From Alphaproteobacteria bacterium (GTDB taxonomy: Bacteria; Pseudomonadota; Alphaproteobacteria; JANQMY01), in assembly GCA_028289425.1 (NCBI GenBank), contig JANQPL010000002.1:1-64000 (forward strand): a stretch of 64,000 bases of DNA, written 5' to 3'. Both the position numbers and the translations under genes were made by a program. The notes beneath the pieces were generated by a model that made no database searches, was not told where the DNA came from, and worked only from the letters and a program-made list of their open reading frames with translations. Positions 30,471 to 57,549 of this stretch are shown one piece after another (within the stretch, counting starts at the first letter, position 1; each line of letters begins with the position of its first letter).

Positions 30471-32861
30471 ATGAGGAGAACCACATCACGTGCGGCACTT
30501 TTAGGTGCCGCGATCGCAGCGCTTATCTCCGCGGATTTTTCGAGTGCGTTGGCACAAATGGACGAAATCATTGTGACGTCCCGTAAGCGCGAAGAGAGCC
30601 TTTTCTCTGTGCCCGTGGCGGTGACCGTCTTGGGCGAGCGCGCGATCGAAGCGGTATCGCCGGCCGATCTTCAGGATCTCACAGGTCTGGCGCCCAATAT
30701 GTTCATTGGACTGAATACCGCCGGTCCCGGCGCCTCGGCGATTTTTAGCCGCGGTCAAGGTTATGCGGACATCGAGAAGACTCAGAACCCTGCGGTTGGC
30801 GTTTCCGTTGACGGAATGTTCATCGGCACCAGTACGGGCCAGTTGTTGGATGCGTTCGATATCGCGCAAGTGGAAGTCAACCGCGGTCCCCAGGGGCTGT
30901 TGTTTGGTAAGAACACAACGGCTGGCGTAATCGACGTTAAACGGACGAGACCAACCGGCGAATTGGGACTTCGTGCGTCCGCATCCTTCGGGAGTTATAA
31001 TGAGCGCATCTTCAAGGCGGTGGGAAACACACCACGGTTTTTGAACGATGTTTTCGCGGCGAAGGTCGGTATTACCCACCGTAGGCGCGACGGATATTAT
31101 GGAAACCTCTATGACGGAGGGGATGAAGGCGAGCTAGAATATTTCAGCGTTCATGGCATGTTGTCGATTGAGCCGGCGAGCTGGTTTGAAGGCTTAATAA
31201 TTTACGATTTCATTGAGCAGCGGGGCGATGGCCAGCCTGTTCAAAATGCCAACAAACTGAATGAACGCCTGTCGGGCGTTGCACTTGCGAACCCCGCGGG
31301 ACTAGGCCCCCACCAAGTCGCGACCGATTTAGATCAGTTTGCTGACTATGACGCTCAGAGGATTAGTGCCGAATTTAATATCGATTCCCCGCTGGGAGAC
31401 TTAACCTCGATTACCGCCTATTTCGACACCTCGGATCGGGTCTTCCAGGATTTTGACGGCACCTGTGCTACTGATCTCGGCGGTTTTGGTTGTGCCGCTT
31501 TGTTGTCATCGAATTTCCGATTCCCGCCGCCGTCTCTGCATACGGACCGTAATCAGGAATATGACCAGTTCACCCAGGAGCTTCGGCTTGTCTCGGATCT
31601 GGGTGAGATCTTCGGCGAGCTGCCTTTGATTCAAGGGGCGACGCTCACCACCGGCGGTTACTTGTTCTTTGGCGATATTCAATTGCTTCAGAATACCGAT
31701 CTGGGGCTTCCGGTTCCCTTCGTTGAACAAGTTGGTACCGAACAGACCCGTTCCTATGCCGGTTTTGCGGCCATGGACGCGGACCTGACCAGCCGCATTT
31801 CGATTACGGCTGGCGGCCGCTTCATCCGTGAAGAGAAGGATTTCTCAAACGTTTATTTTAGCAGGGCGAACTTAGGAGCACCTGCGGGTTCAATCACGTT
31901 TGGCGATGTCACCGGCGTCACATTGGCCCGGCGGACGGAAGATGCTGCCTTCGAAGCGTGGATTACCAAGTTCGGCATCGATTTTCAGGTCACGGAAGAT
32001 GTACTGGCCTATTTCAGCCGCGCTGAAGGTTTCCGTAGCGGCGGATTTTCAATTCGCGCGACCGGTGCGGAAGCATTCGAAGGCGTCAACAGCTGCGCGC
32101 CGGATAATGGCGTCCCGCCGCCATTGGAGCAGCTTTGCCCGGACAACAACTTCTTCACCTTCGAGCCGGAAAGGAATACGACCTACGAACTCGGCCTGAA
32201 AGGTGATCTGTTTGAGAGTGAACTCCTGTTCGGTCTGACCGGTTTCTGGCAAAAGGTTGAAGATTACCAGGTGAGCACTGTGACCAACACGCCGGGCTTT
32301 CCGCGTGCCACGTCCACCTACATCAACAACTTCCAAGAGACCGGAGGCTGGGGTGTTGAAGGTGAGCTCATTTGGGACGTTTCCTTCATTGAAGGGTTCG
32401 TGCTGACGCTCGTCGGCGGCTATCAAGATCTCGAAATCAAGGAAGCGTTGATCGATGCACGTCGGCTGCCTGTTGGCCCCGGAGGGCAACCTGGCTCGCT
32501 GGCGCAAGGCTTCATCGATTTGTCCGATACGGAATTGTCCAGAACACCGGAATTCCAATACTCCATATCCGGCACCTATGAGCGTCATCTCTTCGGCGAC
32601 TATTCCGTCAACACGTCGCTGACGTGGCGGTACCAAGATGAGTTTGTCATCGGTACGCTGGGGACGGAAACGGATATCCAAGACGGCTATGGGCTGCTGG
32701 ACGCGCGGGTAAGCCTTTTGTCGGAAAAAGGGTTCCAATTCTCCGTCATCGGAAAGAACCTGACGAACAAGGATTATCGGAACAACTCGCTGCCTTCGGT
32801 CAATTTCCAAGGCTGGGGCAATCCGACCATCATCACGTTCGAGATACGTGGTGAATTCTGA
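30471..32861 (+). CDS. TonB-dependent outer-membrane receptor
   Basis: The 796-residue product has an N-terminal signal peptide (to about residue 28, ending SALA), a TonB box (DEIIVTSRKREE), a plug domain (GERAIEAVSPADLQDLTGLAPN, VEVNRGPQGLLFGKNTTAGVID) and a beta barrel ending GNPTIITFEIRGEF with a C-terminal Phe. The type resembles sphingomonad-style receptors for organic substrates more than classical siderophore receptors, but the substrate cannot be read from sequence. It is flanked by a TetR regulator and a DUF3604 lipoprotein. Confidence 0.93.
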   Translation: MRRTTSRAALLGAAIAALISADFSSALAQMDEIIVTSRKREESLFSVPVAVTVLGERAIEAVSPADLQDLTGLAPNMFIGLNTAGPGASAIFSRGQGYADIEKTQNPAVGVSVDGMFIGTSTGQLLDAFDIAQVEVNRGPQGLLFGKNTTAGVIDVKRTRPTGELGLRASASFGSYNERIFKAVGNTPRFLNDVFAAKVGITHRRRDGYYGNLYDGGDEGELEYFSVHGMLSIEPASWFEGLIIYDFIEQRGDGQPVQNANKLNERLSGVALANPAGLGPHQVATDLDQFADYDAQRISAEFNIDSPLGDLTSITAYFDTSDRVFQDFDGTCATDLGGFGCAALLSSNFRFPPPSLHTDRNQEYDQFTQELRLVSDLGEIFGELPLIQGATLTTGGYLFFGDIQLLQNTDLGLPVPFVEQVGTEQTRSYAGFAAMDADLTSRISITAGGRFIREEKDFSNVYFSRANLGAPAGSITFGDVTGVTLARRTEDAAFEAWITKFGIDFQVTEDVLAYFSRAEGFRSGGFSIRATGAEAFEGVNSCAPDNGVPPPLEQLCPDNNFFTFEPERNTTYELGLKGDLFESELLFGLTGFWQKVEDYQVSTVTNTPGFPRATSTYINNFQETGGWGVEGELIWDVSFIEGFVLTLVGGYQDLEIKEALIDARRLPVGPGGQPGSLAQGFIDLSDTELSRTPEFQYSISGTYERHLFGDYSVNTSLTWRYQDEFVIGTLGTETDIQDGYGLLDARVSLLSEKGFQFSVIGKNLTNKDYRNNSLPSVNFQGWGNPTIITFEIRGEF

Positions 32862-50718: not shown

Positions 50719-51153
50719 TCACTCCCCCTTACGCACCACCTTTTCGAAGCGGCCAAGGCCGCAGGAACCGCGCGGCGTGCCGGTGGTGGTGTTCAGCACC
50801 GTGATGATTTCCAAATGGCACAGGCGTGCAATTCCCGTGGAATAGGAGTAGGCGCCTTCGAATTTCAGGCCCGAGCACCGGTGGTTCAGGCGGCTCAAAT
50901 ATCTATCCCCATTGTTCAGCCGGAACAGAATGTGGAAATCGTCCAGCGGCCGCGAACTGCGGATGCGCGTGACCTGGAAGCACCGCTCCGTGTCACCCGT
51001 CAGCTCATACTCCGACAGCGCTTCCGGCAGCGGCCCGCCGAATTCCGTCGCCCCGCGGGTGGAATAGGGCCGGTCGTCTTTGTCCTCCGCCAGGGCCGGG
51101 CCCATCACAAGGGCGGCCGCCAAGGCCAGCAGGGTCAAGAGTTTGGTTTTCAT
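50719..51153 (-). CDS. Small secreted cysteine-containing protein, paralogue A
   Basis: The 144-residue product has a signal peptide ending ALA (about residue 22). The mature part carries about four cysteines and the segments GGPLPEALSEYELTGDTERC, FRLNNGDRYLSRLNHRCSGL and CGLGRFEKV, shared with the adjacent paralogue. ATG at 51153 has GGAAGG upstream. No named family is recognised; disulfide bonds in the periplasm are likely. Confidence 0.72.
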   Translation of the reverse strand: MKTKLLTLLALAAALVMGPALAEDKDDRPYSTRGATEFGGPLPEALSEYELTGDTERCFQVTRIRSSRPLDDFHILFRLNNGDRYLSRLNHRCSGLKFEGAYSYSTGIARLCHLEIITVLNTTTGTPRGSCGLGRFEKVVRKGE

Positions 51154-51184
51154 GAGATCCTTCCTTCTATCGGGTGGGTGCGCC

Positions 51185-51607
51185 TCACGCGCCGCCATCT
51201 GTTGAACGTGTCTGCAATTTCTCGAATACCCCCAGCCCGCAGGTGCTGCGCACCCCGTTCGACGCCGGGTCCAGCACCCGGATGATATCGGTGTTGCACA
51301 ATTTCGGCGGACCGACGGTGTAGGTGATGGCCCCGCCGCTGCGCAGGCCCGAACAGGTGCCCCCCAGCCGGCTCACATATCGCTCCCCATTGTTCAGGCG
51401 GAACACAATGTGGCGGTTGTCGATGGGGATGGTCTGCTTGATGCGGTGCTGGGGCAGGCAGGTTTCCGTCTCGCCGGTGAGCTCGTAATCGGCAAGCTTT
51501 GGCGGCAACGGCCCGCCTACCTCTGATGCTGTCGCATCGGACGCCGTGGCACTCATCGCCATGCCGATGCTGAACACGAAGACGGCGCCACGCAGTGTCT
51601 GTTTCAT
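51185..51607 (-). CDS. Small secreted cysteine-containing protein, paralogue B
   Basis: The 140-residue product has a signal peptide ending SATA or so and the same core as paralogue A: GGPLPPKLADYELTGETETC, FRLNNGERYVSRLGGTCSGL and STCGLGVFEKL. The four shared cysteines align. It precedes paralogue A by 31 bp on the minus strand, probably one transcript from a tandem duplication. Function unknown. Confidence 0.72.
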   Translation of the reverse strand: MKQTLRGAVFVFSIGMAMSATASDATASEVGGPLPPKLADYELTGETETCLPQHRIKQTIPIDNRHIVFRLNNGERYVSRLGGTCSGLRSGGAITYTVGPPKLCNTDIIRVLDPASNGVRSTCGLGVFEKLQTRSTDGGA

Positions 51608-51720: not shown

Positions 51721-51921
51721 TGGCCATCCCGCTCCCCCGGCCCAACCACCTAGTGCGCGGGCCTTTTCAGGCGCGCGCACCGTCCTTTTGTCGCGTTTCC
51801 GGACGGCGAACCGGAAGTCCACTTCGCCTGGAAACGCTTGCGGGTACCCTTGGGGTGCCCCCGGGTCCGCGCTTTGCGCGGCCCGAGGACATGGTTCACG
51901 GGCCGGGGGAGCGGGTGGCCA
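51721..51921. repeat. Modular hairpin element, copy 2 (contains 106-bp core)
   Basis: Outer inverted repeats (TGGCCATCCCGCTCCCCCGG at 51721, complement ending 51921) enclose a 106-bp core (51752-51857) that matches 57313-57418 at 105 of 106 positions by direct comparison. The inside also has a CGTTTCC...GGAAACG palindrome, related to the element at 52887. Open frames crossing it are not genes. Confidence 0.8.
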
Positions 51922-52389: not shown

Positions 52390-52881
52390 ATGTTGAAGAA
52401 ATTTGCTGTTGTGTTCGCGGCGGTGTTTTTCGCCACCAGCGCCCTGGCGGACGGCCATGGCGCCAAGAAAGATATTGTCGATACGGCGGTCGAAGCCGGC
52501 CAATTCACCACCCTTGCTGCCGCATTGACGGCGGCTGATTTGGTGGGCGCCTTGAAGGGCGAGGGGCCCTTCACCGTGTTCGCCCCCACCGACGAAGCGT
52601 TCGCCAAATTGCCGGACGGCACCATCGACACGCTTTTGAAGCCCGAAAACAAAGACCAGCTTGTCGGCATCCTCACCTATCACGTGGTCTCGGGCGCTGT
52701 TCCGTCCACGGATCTTGTGGGCAAGACCCTTGACGTGGCCACCTTACAAGGCGCGACCGTGGCGGTGGACGGCACAGACGGTGTCACCGTCAACGGCGCG
52801 AATGTTGTGACCGCGGACATCAAAGCGTCCAACGGCATCATCCACGTAATCGACACGGTAATCCTGCCGCCGGAGAGCTAA
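52390..52881 (+). CDS. Secreted fasciclin-domain protein
   Basis: The 163-residue product has a signal peptide ([20 protein letters not shown]) and one fasciclin (FAS1) domain: [47 protein letters not shown] and the final [12 protein letters not shown]. Such proteins are small secreted or surface adhesin-like proteins of uncertain role. ATG at 52390 is chosen because it gives the signal peptide; ATG at 52384 is also possible. Confidence 0.9.
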
Positions 52882-52886
52882 GACCA

Positions 52887-52934
52887 AGCGTTTCCAGGTG
52901 AAGTGGATACCGGTTCACCGTCCGGAAACGCGCC
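52887..52934. repeat. CGTTTCC/GGAAACG intergenic module
   Basis: GCGTTTCCAGGTGAAGTGG, about ten bases, then CCGTCCGGAAACGCG. It is the inverted form of the central module in elements copy 2 and copy 3. It lies five bases after the fasciclin stop. Confidence 0.65.
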
Positions 52935-52944
52935 AAAAAAACAA

Positions 52945-53079
52945 GCCGATTGGAAGTCTACATGACCAATCGGCCTACATAGTGCGGTTCGTCCGCACAC
53001 GAGATCTCGCAACCTCCCCCAATCAGTATTGCGAGACCAGATCTGGCGCGACCATCTCCCCTCGCGCCAGATCTTTTTT
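52945..53079 (+). ncRNA. Candidate small RNA with C-rich loops and terminator
   Basis: Four consecutive perfect stems occupy 135 bases. They are GCCGATTGG/CCAATCGGC (52945-52974), GTGCGG-TTCGT-CCGCAC (52982-52998), TCTCGCAA/TTGCGAGA with a CCTCCCCC-containing loop (53005-53036) and a 12-bp terminator stem with a TCTCCCC-containing loop (53039-53079). Exposed anti-Shine-Dalgarno CUCCC loops occur in alphaproteobacterial trans-acting sRNAs such as AbcR and CcsR types. No clear promoter is seen. It could instead be a structured 3' UTR of the fasciclin mRNA. Confidence 0.5.
53039..53079 (+). terminator. Strong intrinsic terminator
   Basis: A perfect 12-bp stem AGATCTGGCGCG/CGCGCCAGATCT (53039-53050 and 53063-53074) with a 12-base loop is followed by T residues to 53079. 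It ends plus-strand transcripts and marks the left boundary of the defence cassette. Confidence 0.85.
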
Positions 53080-53183: not shown

Positions 53184-53828
53184 TCAAATTCGTTGACAAG
53201 TGGGTTCGCCTTTTAAAGTACTGCAGTATCGCCAAATAATTAGATCTACTACACCTACGGGATCACCGCTTGCTTTTGCTAGTTGTGCGCAGAGTTCTTG
53301 AACACTAACGTACCCAAAAGAGCGAGCAACTGTGACGAGATGGCGGTCCGGCTTGGCCACATTGCAACCGATGTTTTTCGCCAGGTGCCAAACCGTGATA
53401 GGGCCAATGAATGGCAGCGAGCTGAGTGTTTTTATCGGGTCATCCCGAACGCGACCCATGAAAGTTTCAAAGCCGTCTTCGTGAATTGTTCTTGCGACTT
53501 TTGCAATTGATCTGATTTTGGCACGATTGCGAAAATAGGCTGTGGCGCATTCAACACAGAGCTCTTCGTTGTGAACGATGTATTGGGCTGTTTCCCAGTC
53601 ACCGAATGCAAGTGATACGCCGTTAAAGCGCCTTCTGGCGGTGGATTCTCTGAAACCAGAGTTTATGATTACCCAAGCAGCTTCTCGAAGGAAATCACTT
53701 TCACTGACGTTATCTAATCGAACTCCTAATTGCCATTCGACTTCAGCTCGATACTTTGAACCGAGAACGATACGTCGCGCGTTCAGATAGTAACGTACAA
53801 CCGATATTGCATCATCGTTCAGCACCAT
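53184..53828 (-). CDS. HhH-GPD DNA glycosylase-like protein (OGG-like, type IV CBASS accessory)
   Basis: The 214-residue product has the helix-hairpin-helix region LPFIGPITVWHLAKNIG (residues 138-154), followed by Lys-Pro-Asp with Asp161 in the place of the catalytic Asp of the HhH-GPD superfamily. The Lys nucleophile expected in the hairpin (Gly-x-Gly-x-Lys in OGG1) appears replaced, so activity may be altered. OGG-like genes are a recognised accessory of type IV CBASS. It is the last gene of the five-gene operon, overlapping the previous one by 17 bases. Confidence 0.82.
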   Translation of the reverse strand: MVLNDDAISVVRYYLNARRIVLGSKYRAEVEWQLGVRLDNVSESDFLREAAWVIINSGFRESTARRRFNGVSLAFGDWETAQYIVHNEELCVECATAYFRNRAKIRSIAKVARTIHEDGFETFMGRVRDDPIKTLSSLPFIGPITVWHLAKNIGCNVAKPDRHLVTVARSFGYVSVQELCAQLAKASGDPVGVVDLIIWRYCSTLKGEPTCQRI

Positions 53829-54393
53829 CTCGACTTATCGTATCTCTCCAAAATAGTTTCAAACGAGTTAACAGAATTGATGCGCCAGGGTAATTGTCGA
53901 GGTGCTTGCTGATCTCGACCTTCAATTTGTGCGCCTTTTTCAATCTAAGGAATTGTGATTCTGGAATGTTAGTCCCTATCTCAGTTGCCATGTCGTACTT
54001 TGAAGCAATTCTTCTGTATTCATCGTCATTCAGAGATTCCTTGGAAAGAAGATCGGAGATTTCCTTCTTTACTTCAGCGTACAGAGAAAAGCTCTTTGAA
54101 TGTGATTCTGACTTACCCTTCCAGTCGACGAGTAATTGAAATATAGAAAGGGCAAACACGCCTAAAGATATCAAACCGACCCAAATGTCCGGATCAATTG
54201 TGGAAACATTCAGATAAACTCGAACTCGATCAGGTGCGAACGTCAAAGACACCAAATATGCCGCAAGCAGGAATATAAACACATCCAGAACGGTGGCGTA
54301 GAATCTAAACCTATCTCTTAGCAGGGCGTGTGCCGTACACAGCATGTCAGCAGTGTCTTTTGTTTTCTTTGCTTGACTAGCTTTTTGCGTCAC
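53812..54393 (-). CDS. Two-TM SLATT-like effector
   Basis: The 193-residue product has two hydrophobic helices (about residues 33-52 and 70-90) and a long C-terminal helical, Lys/Glu-rich part, the layout of SLATT (SMODS and SLOG-associated two-TM) effectors. Such proteins are thought to damage the inner membrane when the cyclic-nucleotide signal is made. The start is GTG at 54393, overlapping the CD-NTase stop as GTGA. A different two-TM class is possible, since family assignment rests on architecture and neighbours. Confidence 0.8.
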   Translation of the reverse strand: MTQKASQAKKTKDTADMLCTAHALLRDRFRFYATVLDVFIFLLAAYLVSLTFAPDRVRVYLNVSTIDPDIWVGLISLGVFALSIFQLLVDWKGKSESHSKSFSLYAEVKKEISDLLSKESLNDDEYRRIASKYDMATEIGTNIPESQFLRLKKAHKLKVEISKHLDNYPGASILLTRLKLFWRDTISRDGAER

Positions 54394-55346
54394 TGGAATC
54401 GAGTCTCTTCAAGTTCAAACAATGACTCCCACTGTTCGATTGAATGGGCTGCATTGGCATTTCGCATTCGTTTCTCAATTCGTCCAAGCATGTGTGACGC
54501 TCTCAGCCGCGCTTTGCTATCCTTGTCTCCCAAATATTCATCGACATAATCTGATTGACCAGTTTTGTCGCTAATTGGGGTTTTTACACTTGTTTTCGCG
54601 CTTTCAAAGAACTTCACAAGCATAGCATGTAGCGTTTTCTGACCTGCATATTGTTTGAATGCTCTGACGGCGAGACTCTCTGTGTGATAACCTGAGAGCC
54701 GCTGACCCTCCGGAAGTGTAGCAATTATTGCTTTAGCCAGCTTGATCGTTGGAATTAGTTTCCTGTCACAAGCCGCGTTCAAGCTCGAAAGCTCCTCCTG
54801 AAATGCCTCTGGGTCGATCTTCGACCAATTTTTTCCGTCAGTTGACGGAATATATAGCTTGCCTCTGGTGCTCCTGAAGCCGGGCAATATTTGAAGCTCA
54901 GTGTTGTCGGGGTACTCCACCGTAACTGCTAAATCACCCTTCGTAACTTCAGCATCTGTCCCCAGGCGTGTCTGTACCAGGGAAGTGAAATCTGATATGA
55001 GTTTTGAAGGTTTCGGCAGTTCATCAAATTTGTCTTTTAGAATAAAGAGTGTGTCGACATCGCTTAGTCCGTCAACGTAAGTATGTTTTGCAACTGAGCC
55101 ACCAAAAAGGGAATCGATACTTGTCTCAAGTTCGTCGGAGATAAATTCTTTGAGCGCATTCAACCGCTGTTGAATGAGTTCTGGATTTCGGTCGTTGTAC
55201 TCACGCAAAAGTTCTTTAAACAAATCTGACAATGATACATTGAACCCAGATTCAAGGGCTTTCTTTTCAGCTTCGTCGATCCTCCTCTTTACCTGCTCAG
55301 GAGTCCACCTATCAGGGATATAGCTTCCGCCACCGCTTCCACCCAT
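54390..55346 (-). CDS. CD-NTase (cGAS/DncV-like nucleotidyltransferase) of type IV CBASS
   Basis: It is the signal-producing enzyme that makes a cyclic oligonucleotide on phage infection. The 318-residue product has the nucleotidyltransferase motif Gly-Gly-Ser (82-84), Asp96 and Asp98 in LSDVDTLF, and a probable third acid, Glu150, in ELQILPGF. The start is ATG at 55346, which shares one base with the Cap10 stop (TGATG). It yields Met-Gly-Gly-Ser-Gly-Gly-Gly-Ser, so Met removal exposes a glycine followed by a flexible tail. The GTG at 55349 would add one Met and is disfavoured. Cyclic product unknown. Confidence 0.9.
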   Translation of the reverse strand: MGGSGGGSYIPDRWTPEQVKRRIDEAEKKALESGFNVSLSDLFKELLREYNDRNPELIQQRLNALKEFISDELETSIDSLFGGSVAKHTYVDGLSDVDTLFILKDKFDELPKPSKLISDFTSLVQTRLGTDAEVTKGDLAVTVEYPDNTELQILPGFRSTRGKLYIPSTDGKNWSKIDPEAFQEELSSLNAACDRKLIPTIKLAKAIIATLPEGQRLSGYHTESLAVRAFKQYAGQKTLHAMLVKFFESAKTSVKTPISDKTGQSDYVDEYLGDKDSKARLRASHMLGRIEKRMRNANAAHSIEQWESLFELEETRFQ

Positions 55347-56353
55347 CACAAGCCTCCAATTTTCTCAACTGCTGCATCGTACAAGAACTTTAGTCTGTCT
55401 ACGTTGTAGTCAAATCGATTCCAATCTCCATCGTTCAAAAATGATCTCATCTGCATCTGCATGTTTTGCAGGTAATTGTAGTTGTGGTGCCAGCATTCGG
55501 TTTTCACTCTTGTGTGGTGTGTGTTCGGAGGGAACGCCAAAGCGGCTAAGTTTTGTTGATAGGTAGTTGCGCCTTTGTCGTAGGCGTATCGAAGCCATGT
55601 CAGACCGTCAAAAATGTCTGCGCCCATTGCGAAGTATAGAAGCGTCGTCACAGTGTCTAGGCTTCCAAAGATATGTATGGGCGTTTCCAGAGAGGCTTGA
55701 CCTAAAGCCAGTCTTATCCGCCCAACATTTGTCATGCGATCGATTAGCGAAGTTCCTACCTCTTTTTCTGTTACGCCAATCACCGCGAAAGGAGCGAAGT
55801 CTCTTGCACGTGCACAGATTTCATCAATGTCTAGATATTGTGCTGATGAACTAGCGGGTTTTAGTAACAACTCTCTGGCTATCGCATTTTTCGCTCCGCC
55901 AAGGCGTAACCCACGTTTAATCTGCTCGGCAACACTGCATCGCTCCTTTGGATGATCGTATGTAACGAAAATGGTCGGTGGAAGAGCGGTCCAGTTTGCA
56001 ACTACTTCTTCGTAGTACTCTAACTTCCAATCGCGCGGCTCATATTCCGTTTCAAGAGCTTCGAATTGAGTAGCAAGATCTGCCTCTGTTGAGGCCTCAT
56101 ATCCGCCGCTGTCCAGGAATATCAAAGAAGGAAAGTTCAGCTCTTGTTTGAGATAGTTGAAGTGGATGTCATACGCACTGACAAGAATTTCTGTTGATAT
56201 GAAAGGCTCAGTTAACTCGACAACTCTTCCGACTTGAGGGAAGCCTTTGCTCGAAAATGACGGCACAAGAATAGGAGTTCTTTCTGTCCCAGAGTTGGGG
56301 ATGTTTATTGTGCGCTTTTTTGCAAATCTTGGAGTATTGCTCGATCCCGACAA
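55346..56353 (-). CDS. cap10: tRNA-guanine transglycosylase-like protein Cap10 (type IV CBASS)
   Basis: The 335-residue product keeps the TGT fold signs: FLDSGGYE with Asp81 at the place of the TGT substrate-binding Asp, and DIFDGLTW with Asp249 at the place of the nucleophile. The C-terminal zinc motif of true TGT (CxCxxC plus His) is missing. In type IV CBASS, TGT-like Cap10 is reported to bind the CD-NTase rather than tRNA. The best start is TTG at 56353, with GGGGAG eight bases upstream, inside cap9; TTG 56371 and GTG 56362 are alternatives. It overlaps cap9 by 49 bases. Confidence 0.86.
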   Translation of the reverse strand: MSGSSNTPRFAKKRTINIPNSGTERTPILVPSFSSKGFPQVGRVVELTEPFISTEILVSAYDIHFNYLKQELNFPSLIFLDSGGYEASTEADLATQFEALETEYEPRDWKLEYYEEVVANWTALPPTIFVTYDHPKERCSVAEQIKRGLRLGGAKNAIARELLLKPASSSAQYLDIDEICARARDFAPFAVIGVTEKEVGTSLIDRMTNVGRIRLALGQASLETPIHIFGSLDTVTTLLYFAMGADIFDGLTWLRYAYDKGATTYQQNLAALAFPPNTHHTRVKTECWHHNYNYLQNMQMQMRSFLNDGDWNRFDYNVDRLKFLYDAAVEKIGGL

Positions 56354-56877
56354 GAAAGACACTCCCCACAAGGTTGTCTATTTTGCGACTCACAGCTGTA
56401 GGATGCCTCGATTGGAAGATTATTATCAATAGCGTATTGATAGATCTCGTGTTTTTCCCAGTCCAAGAATGGTGCAACTAGATCAACCGCTCCGTCTGTC
56501 ATATCTGAGATCAATCGCGAAGTTGATCGAAAGAACTCGGAAGAGCAATCGAAGTACGGTGTTCCCGCATGGATCCCGAGGCCAATTAGACCGGGTTTGA
56601 CCGGCATCATAAAAAGCACAGCCGATACAAAGAACAAATTCCGACCTGTGAGTTCACCTTCGCCAAAGGCTCGAGCATGCTCACATCGAATTATGGAGTG
56701 CGGAATTCCTAAGTTGTCTGCTAGGAACTGTGATGCCGAACGCTCCGAATGCAATGCAGCCTGACCGTAATCCACGAAGGTAGCGGATACGTCGAAACCG
56801 CTCTCTTGGAGGAGATGGGCGCAACACATTGAATCGATGCCGCCGCTGAAGAGGATGTTGGCGCGGACACTAGTCAT
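56305..56877 (-). CDS. cap9: QueC-like protein Cap9 (type IV CBASS)
   Basis: The 190-residue product is a PP-loop ATPase related to QueC, which converts 7-carboxy-7-deazaguanine to preQ0. The PP-loop SGGIDS is at residues 11-16, and the zinc-binding cysteines Cys162, Cys170, Cys173 and Cys176 are in the CxxxxxxxCGECLSC pattern. In type IV CBASS, Cap9 is reported to join a 7-deazaguanine to the CD-NTase N-terminus. ATG at 56877 has GGAG eight bases upstream; the frame to 56910 is longer but has no better site. No queD, queE or folE gene is in the window, so the deazaguanine must come from elsewhere in the cell. Confidence 0.88.
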   Translation of the reverse strand: MTSVRANILFSGGIDSMCCAHLLQESGFDVSATFVDYGQAALHSERSASQFLADNLGIPHSIIRCEHARAFGEGELTGRNLFFVSAVLFMMPVKPGLIGLGIHAGTPYFDCSSEFFRSTSRLISDMTDGAVDLVAPFLDWEKHEIYQYAIDNNLPIEASYSCESQNRQPCGECLSCRDRAILQDLQKSAQ

Positions 56878-56930
56878 TTCGTTGGCTCCATAAATGATCC
56901 TAACAGCCAAGAAAGCTCGGAGGAATCCAT
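56874..56930 (-). CDS. 18-residue upstream ORF coupled to cap9
   Basis: A short frame from ATG at 56930 reads MDSSELSWLLGSFMEPTK and stops at TGA 56876-56874, overlapping the cap9 ATG in AAATGA. The GGAG used by cap9 lies inside it. It has no clear Shine-Dalgarno of its own, so translation is uncertain. If translated, it would couple translation into cap9. Confidence 0.3.
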   Translation of the reverse strand: MDSSELSWLLGSFMEPTK

Positions 56931-57234: not shown

Positions 57235-57549
57235 GGATGGACCCCATGCGCCCATTGTTTATTGACCATAGCCAGCCCACTCCCGCGCCTGTTGGTTTCT
57301 GGCCAACCACCCAGTGCGCGGGCCTTTTCAGGCGCGCGCACCGTTCTTTTGTCGCGTTTCCGGACGGCGAACCGGAAGTCCACTTCGCCTGGAAACGCTT
57401 GCGGGTACCCTTGGGGTGGTTGGCCAAGATCGACATTGGGGGAGAGGGTGGCCAGGACCATCAACTTTGGATCAACCCCATGCGCCCATCTCGTCAAGGT
57501 CAAAATCGGGGTGGAAGACGCAAAAATGGGATGAACCCCATGCACCCAT
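57235..57549. repeat. Three copies of a GGATnnACCCCATGCGCCCAT motif
   Basis: Copies begin at 57235, 57469 and 57529, the last with one change (GCACCCAT). Spacing is 234 and 60 bases. The first lies just before, and the others after, modular element copy 3. No function is seen. Confidence 0.5.
57271..57455. repeat. Modular hairpin element, copy 3 (contains 106-bp core)
   Basis: Outer inverted arms (GCCAGCCCACTCCCGC at 57271, GGGGGAGAGGGTGGCC near 57438-57453) enclose the same 106-bp core as copy 2 (57313-57418), in the same orientation and with one mismatch. It lies on the right side of the CBASS cassette. Confidence 0.8.

Follow-up and report, generated by a model that had tools for sequence, protein, structure and literature searches.

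A stretch of 135 nt between a fasciclin gene and a CBASS operon is occupied by a series of hairpins, and raises the question of whether it yields a regulatory RNA, from which transcript such an RNA would come and on which genes it would act. The locus was studied in the window, that is, the whole stretch of 64,000 nt of alphaproteobacterial DNA that was analysed. The sequence-only reading had regarded the complete 135 nt as a candidate small RNA (sRNA) with anti-Shine-Dalgarno loops, related to the AbcR and CcsR RNAs and possibly linked to the neighbouring defence operon. The features of the region are detailed in Table 1.

Table 1. Features of the fasciclin–CBASS region, with coordinates of the window
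Feature	Position	Strand	Characteristics
Fasciclin-domain protein gene, secreted, 163 aa	52390..52881	+	Pfam PF02469, E 1.2e-38; signal peptide in translation
Interspersed palindromic repeat	52885..52940	+	Between fasciclin gene and RNA; outside the conserved element
Hairpin 1, 9 bp	52945..52974	.	Terminator-like on the minus strand (52937-52974), then TTGTTTTTTT; not conserved
Hairpin 2, 6 bp	52982..52998	+	Loop UUCGU (not C-rich); not conserved
Core hairpin A, 8 bp	53005..53036	+	Anti-Shine-Dalgarno-type loop CCUCCCCCAAUCAGUA
Core hairpin B, 13-bp intrinsic terminator	53039..53079	+	Stem-loop 53039-53074, C-rich loop CCAUCUCCCC, then UUUUU
CBASS operon	53184-56910	-	Convergent with the fasciclin mRNA; ends 105 nt from the RNA

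Structure and rarity of the element

Four perfect stems within 52945-53079, the last of them a terminator with a U-tract, were borne out by the sequence and the predicted fold, and the two C-rich loops described earlier (CCUCCCCC and UCUCCCC) are present in the last two hairpins. The minimum free energy of the 135 nt was -58.0 kcal/mol, compared with a mean of -30.2 for shuffled sequences (z -8.2; 0 of 200 shuffles). Tandem hairpins with C-rich loops followed by a T-run were found once in the window and never in 1.53 Mb of Markov-shuffled sequence, and the G-rich mirror of this motif was absent from 1.31 Mb of strand-bases. Within 864 kb sampled of the same genome, only three of 80 terminator-like hairpins carried a C-rich loop, and among those three only 53039-53079 had a second C-rich hairpin just upstream; the simple type of terminator scan misses hairpin 1 because its loop is 12 nt long. 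Single CCTCCCCC words were about as common as expected (4 found, 3.3 expected), so that the architecture, and not the words, is the unusual feature. The structured RNA element is real and represents a variant of an already known kind.

An sRNA on the minus strand was also considered and rejected: this strand folds too (z -5.9), yet its loops are G-rich, and its Rfam matches to McaS and Mg-II are at chance level. Elsewhere in the same genome (L137, 1573-1635; C12, near 554 kb) a weaker second tandem pair of C-rich hairpins was observed, flanked by acyl-CoA dehydrogenase and enoyl-CoA hydratase genes and adjoining a copy of the palindromic repeat.

Conservation in related genomes

The conserved unit consists of the last two hairpins only, 53005-53079. 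Comparison at the DNA level with 59 relatives retrieved the congener G001 alone, and a scan of fasciclin loci in named genomes added one further copy, L053, from a more distant alphaproteobacterial metagenome-assembled genome (MAG); the copies therefore total three, two of them from one genus. No similar DNA was found on plasmids. Hairpins 1 and 2 are lacking in both relatives, so the 135-nt unit proposed earlier holds for its core and not for its 5' part.

The contig with the G001 copy begins inside the fasciclin gene, of which it retains just the final 20 nt (C-terminal end VILPPES*, against ILPPEG* in the window), and the core begins ~17-20 nt after the stop codon. Hairpin A is TCTCGCA-CTCTCCCA-TGCGAGA, with CUCUCCCA as the loop counterpart, and hairpin B is AGATCTGGCGCG...CGCGCCAGATCT, with a loop UCUCCCCCAUCUUCCCC that contains CUCCCCC and CUUCCCC. 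In L053 the hairpin pair begins 9 nt 3' of the fasciclin stop; hairpin A is GTCTCCGG-CTCTCCTCCC-CCGGAGAC, with CUCUCCUCCC as the loop counterpart, and hairpin B is a 16-bp terminator with the loop ATTTCCCCCCACCCC (AUUUCCCCCCACCCC as the counterpart to CCAUCUCCCC). The loops are C-rich in both relatives despite altered loop length and sequence.

Manual inspection shows full complementarity in every stem of the three copies. In an alignment fitted to the structure of the window, in which one helix-1 pair fails through a register error, 13 of 21 pairs of L053 were changed on both sides (4.3 in shuffles, 0-3 in slid structures), including 7 of 13 pairs in hairpin B. A covariance model built from the window alone recovered G001 with 50.7 bits and L053 with 23.9 (E 0.0013); the remaining weak matches of this model among 385 genomes of the class, besides G001, had neither the tandem C-rich pair nor the fasciclin motif and were rejected.

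Relatives of the genome that carries L053 (G385) retain the fasciclin gene, in some followed by a single C-rich hairpin (UUUCCUCCC in L175, CCCCCCUCCC in L178) and in others by none; a terminator-like hairpin stays in most of them while C-rich loops come and go. A general tie between C-rich hairpins and fasciclin genes was rejected, as 125 gene ends gave no clear enrichment over shuffles (stem 6, 9 against 5.2 expected; stem 7, 7 against 2.1; G-rich control, 6 and 4, respectively). With only some relatives bearing such hairpins and no general enrichment, the association of the hairpin pair with fasciclin is real but restricted. A small gene for a CPxC...CPC(S)AR zinc-ribbon-like protein was observed 3' of the fasciclin gene in L174-L176, L178 and L053.

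In the genome of the window, 120 nt, comprising the palindromic repeat and hairpins 1 and 2, are inserted between the fasciclin gene and the core. The repeat matches 39 places of the genome at E<=1, ~30 of them at E<1e-3, and is not present after fasciclin in G001 or L053. Further copies at 51786-51840 and 57343-57401 flank the fasciclin–CBASS region, and three copies elsewhere are weak, sub-cut-off Rfam BASRCI27 matches. Two overlapping neighbouring DUF6491-type genes (50719-51607, minus strand) apparently represent a tandem duplication.

Comparison with known RNA families

The ar14 and CcsR1 families comprise alphaproteobacterial RNAs with anti-Shine-Dalgarno loops, and CcsR and NfeR1/ar14 RNAs have been reported or proposed to pair with Shine-Dalgarno sites, lowering translation. 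Such ar14/CcsR/cuckoo sRNAs are described in Rhizobiales and in Rhodobacter, those of Rhodobacter being tied to DUF1127.

No Rfam family was reached at its cut-off by the element of the window. Its best match was ar14 (RF02344), with 26.0 bits against a gathering cut-off of 58.8 (E 0.0039 in a search of 321 bases, 0.015 genome-wide); the alignment begins at 52976, covers three stems and places both C-rich loops on the corresponding hairpins. For L053 the best match was CcsR1 (RF02791), with 25.2 bits (cut-off 65.3, E 0.0098), a family to which no match of the window was reported. The AbcR/ar15 families were not matched by the window at any reported threshold. Of the kinship proposed earlier, a C-rich-loop sRNA of the CcsR type is supported by these sub-threshold matches, by the retention of C-rich loops and by the compensatory changes in L053.

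The ar14 RNAs are defined by three hairpins, each with CCUCCUCCC in an unpaired region, and by their own sigma-70 promoter, CTTAGAC-N17-CTATAT (PMC10746234; see also PMC10253847). As in ar14 (NfeR1, Smr14C2), the last two hairpins of the window have C-rich loops in matching places; the three loops aligned are UUCGU, CCUCCCCCAAUCAGUA and CCAUCUCCCC, the first of them in a hairpin that is not conserved, and no sigma-70 promoter of that kind scored above shuffles. Exact CCUCCUCCC is lacking in the window element, and only L053 comes near it (CUCUCCUCCC). CcsR1-4 of Rhodobacter ("cuckoo" RNAs, CIN1 locus) are processed by RNase E from an mRNA 3' UTR (PMC8625941). The window element shares with them C-rich loops of the anti-Shine-Dalgarno type, and tandem hairpins with such loops and free stem sequence occur in the window, G001 and L053; it differs in being a single copy rather than an array, and in its host gene, which is fasciclin and not DUF1127. 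DUF1127 (PF06568) was not found in the genome of the window (G000) or in G001. With AbcR1/AbcR2 there is a general likeness, C-rich anti-Shine-Dalgarno loops pairing with ribosome-binding sites, in a different genomic setting. Judged by sequence features, the element looks CcsR/cuckoo-like; it was not filed as a member because its loops depart from the exact motif, C-richness is lacking in the loop of the hairpin that corresponds to the first one of ar14, no promoter rises above shuffles, and DUF1127 was not found in this genome or its congener.

In another genome (G023; L004, 1490-1760, minus strand) four C-rich hairpins, with loops containing CUCCUCCUCCCUG, were observed 3' of a DUF1127-like protein gene; this canonical cuckoo/CIN1 array scored 57 and 53 bits, just below the Rfam ar14 cut-off.

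Origin of the RNA and alternative explanations

The explanation that we favour, with a probability of about 0.58, is that 53005-53079 is the 3'-terminal part of the fasciclin mRNA and a possible source of a CcsR/cuckoo-like anti-Shine-Dalgarno sRNA. It draws on the structure, the position after fasciclin in two lineages, the covariation in L053, the lasting C-rich loops and the weak but independent likenesses to ar14 and CcsR1; processing of the RNA and pairing with Shine-Dalgarno sites are its predicted steps. RNase cleavage, or mere terminator-bounded decay, would free a stable RNA of ~75 nt, the level of which would track the fasciclin promoter. The C-rich loops (CUCCCC, a mimic of the 16S anti-Shine-Dalgarno sequence) could then base-pair with G-rich Shine-Dalgarno regions in other transcripts and so reduce translation from them. 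Because of the 120-nt insert, processing from the fasciclin mRNA is not certain in the genome of the window.

A clearly less probable alternative is that the element does no more than terminate the fasciclin transcript strongly and stabilise its 3' end by a hairpin, the C-rich loops having no role in trans. Hairpin B is a textbook terminator, the element directly follows the fasciclin gene in relatives, and both the variable loops in relatives of G385 and the lack of general enrichment after fasciclin genes speak for it. Against this stand the rarity of C-rich terminator loops and of the tandem arrangement in the 864 kb sampled, the persistence of C-richness through changes of loop length and sequence in G001 and L053, and the fact that the closest Rfam likenesses are known anti-Shine-Dalgarno sRNAs. 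An independent sRNA gene of ~104-135 nt, as the sequence-only reading implied, transcribed from a promoter in the fasciclin 3' region with a start at ~52945-52988, appears unlikely. The three-stem alignment to ar14 from 52976 would suit it, and a poor promoter-like sequence, TGGAAG-N18-CTACAT, would give a start near 52988; however, the promoter scan of 52781-53010 yielded nothing better than shuffles, the best score, 8/12, being also the commonest best score of shuffled sequences. Moreover, the distances from stop codon to core in L053 and G001, which have no hairpins 1 and 2, are too short to accommodate an additional promoter between the coding sequence and the core. The sequence-only reading had named two observations that would count against an sRNA, the lack of compensatory changes in homologues and the lack of an RNA species distinct from the fasciclin mRNA: the former changes exist, while a separate transcript is not indicated, the core lying <=~20 nt from the stop in relatives.

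Relation to the CBASS operon

The CBASS operon encodes QueC-like, TGT-like and OGG-like proteins, a 2TM effector and a cyclase, and is of the type carrying queuosine-type base-modification proteins. That the RNA regulates this operon, whether through the ribosome-binding site of cap9 or through antisense pairing with an extended CBASS 3' UTR, is very improbable. In its favour are the convergent arrangement and the short distance between the two units. On the minus strand hairpin 1 faces the operon with a fold of -16.7 kcal/mol, and it is plausible from the sequence that, with TTGTTTTTTT, it acts as a CBASS terminator in this genome only; a CBASS 3' UTR ending there would overlap the RNA and hold its full antisense. 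On the other side, the G001 and L053 copies follow fasciclin with no adjoining CBASS genes within their short contigs. The GGAG site of cap9 exists as had been noted, but its match to the loops is merely 4-5 bp. In a rough pairing scan of 643 gene leaders, cap9 paired weakly (-8.3 kcal/mol) and ranked 333, the best CBASS genes being the glycosylase (rank 93) and the cyclase (rank 108). A connection with defence is not supported: nothing ties the RNA to the neighbouring anti-phage genes.

Candidate targets

The fasciclin leader, which had been put forward as a target together with that of cap9, ranked 477 in the same scan, and neither proposal was upheld; autoregulation of fasciclin was rejected on this basis. 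The best partners of the loops, near the top of the 643 leaders, were those of TonB receptors. A further 24 TonB-receptor leaders, which had not been used to form the idea, outpaired background genes (p 1e-4), and GGGGAG was present in 7 of these 24 against 14 of 637 background leaders (p 3e-6). However, composition-scrambled C-rich loops reproduced most of the effect, and the score was no different for TonB receptors from 20 plasmid records of other alphaproteobacteria, 20 genes in all (p 0.25-0.32). The pairing is thus a trait of TonB leaders and not evidence of co-adaptation, and TonB receptors were rejected as a regulon; on sequence grounds their leaders are reasonable first candidate targets, no more, above all those with GGGGAG(G), such as that of the receptor gene at 30471-32861 of the window.

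The genome of the window (L226-L255) has 38 TonB-receptor plug domains, and many of these receptor genes have unusually G-rich ribosome-binding sites. GGGGG was present in 10 of the 24 own TonB leaders tested, compared with 1-2 of 20 in other alphaproteobacteria.

Biological significance

Current Rfam cut-offs miss members of this kind, including the canonical DUF1127-linked array mentioned above. A tentative and rather doubtful extension is that, in a lineage without DUF1127, a CcsR/cuckoo-like anti-Shine-Dalgarno RNA has moved to the 3' end of fasciclin, which would couple expression of a surface protein to the repression of those TonB receptors of the outer membrane whose mRNAs have G-rich ribosome-binding sites. 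More generally, this example suggests that such a pair of hairpins can become attached to an unrelated mRNA, here that of fasciclin.
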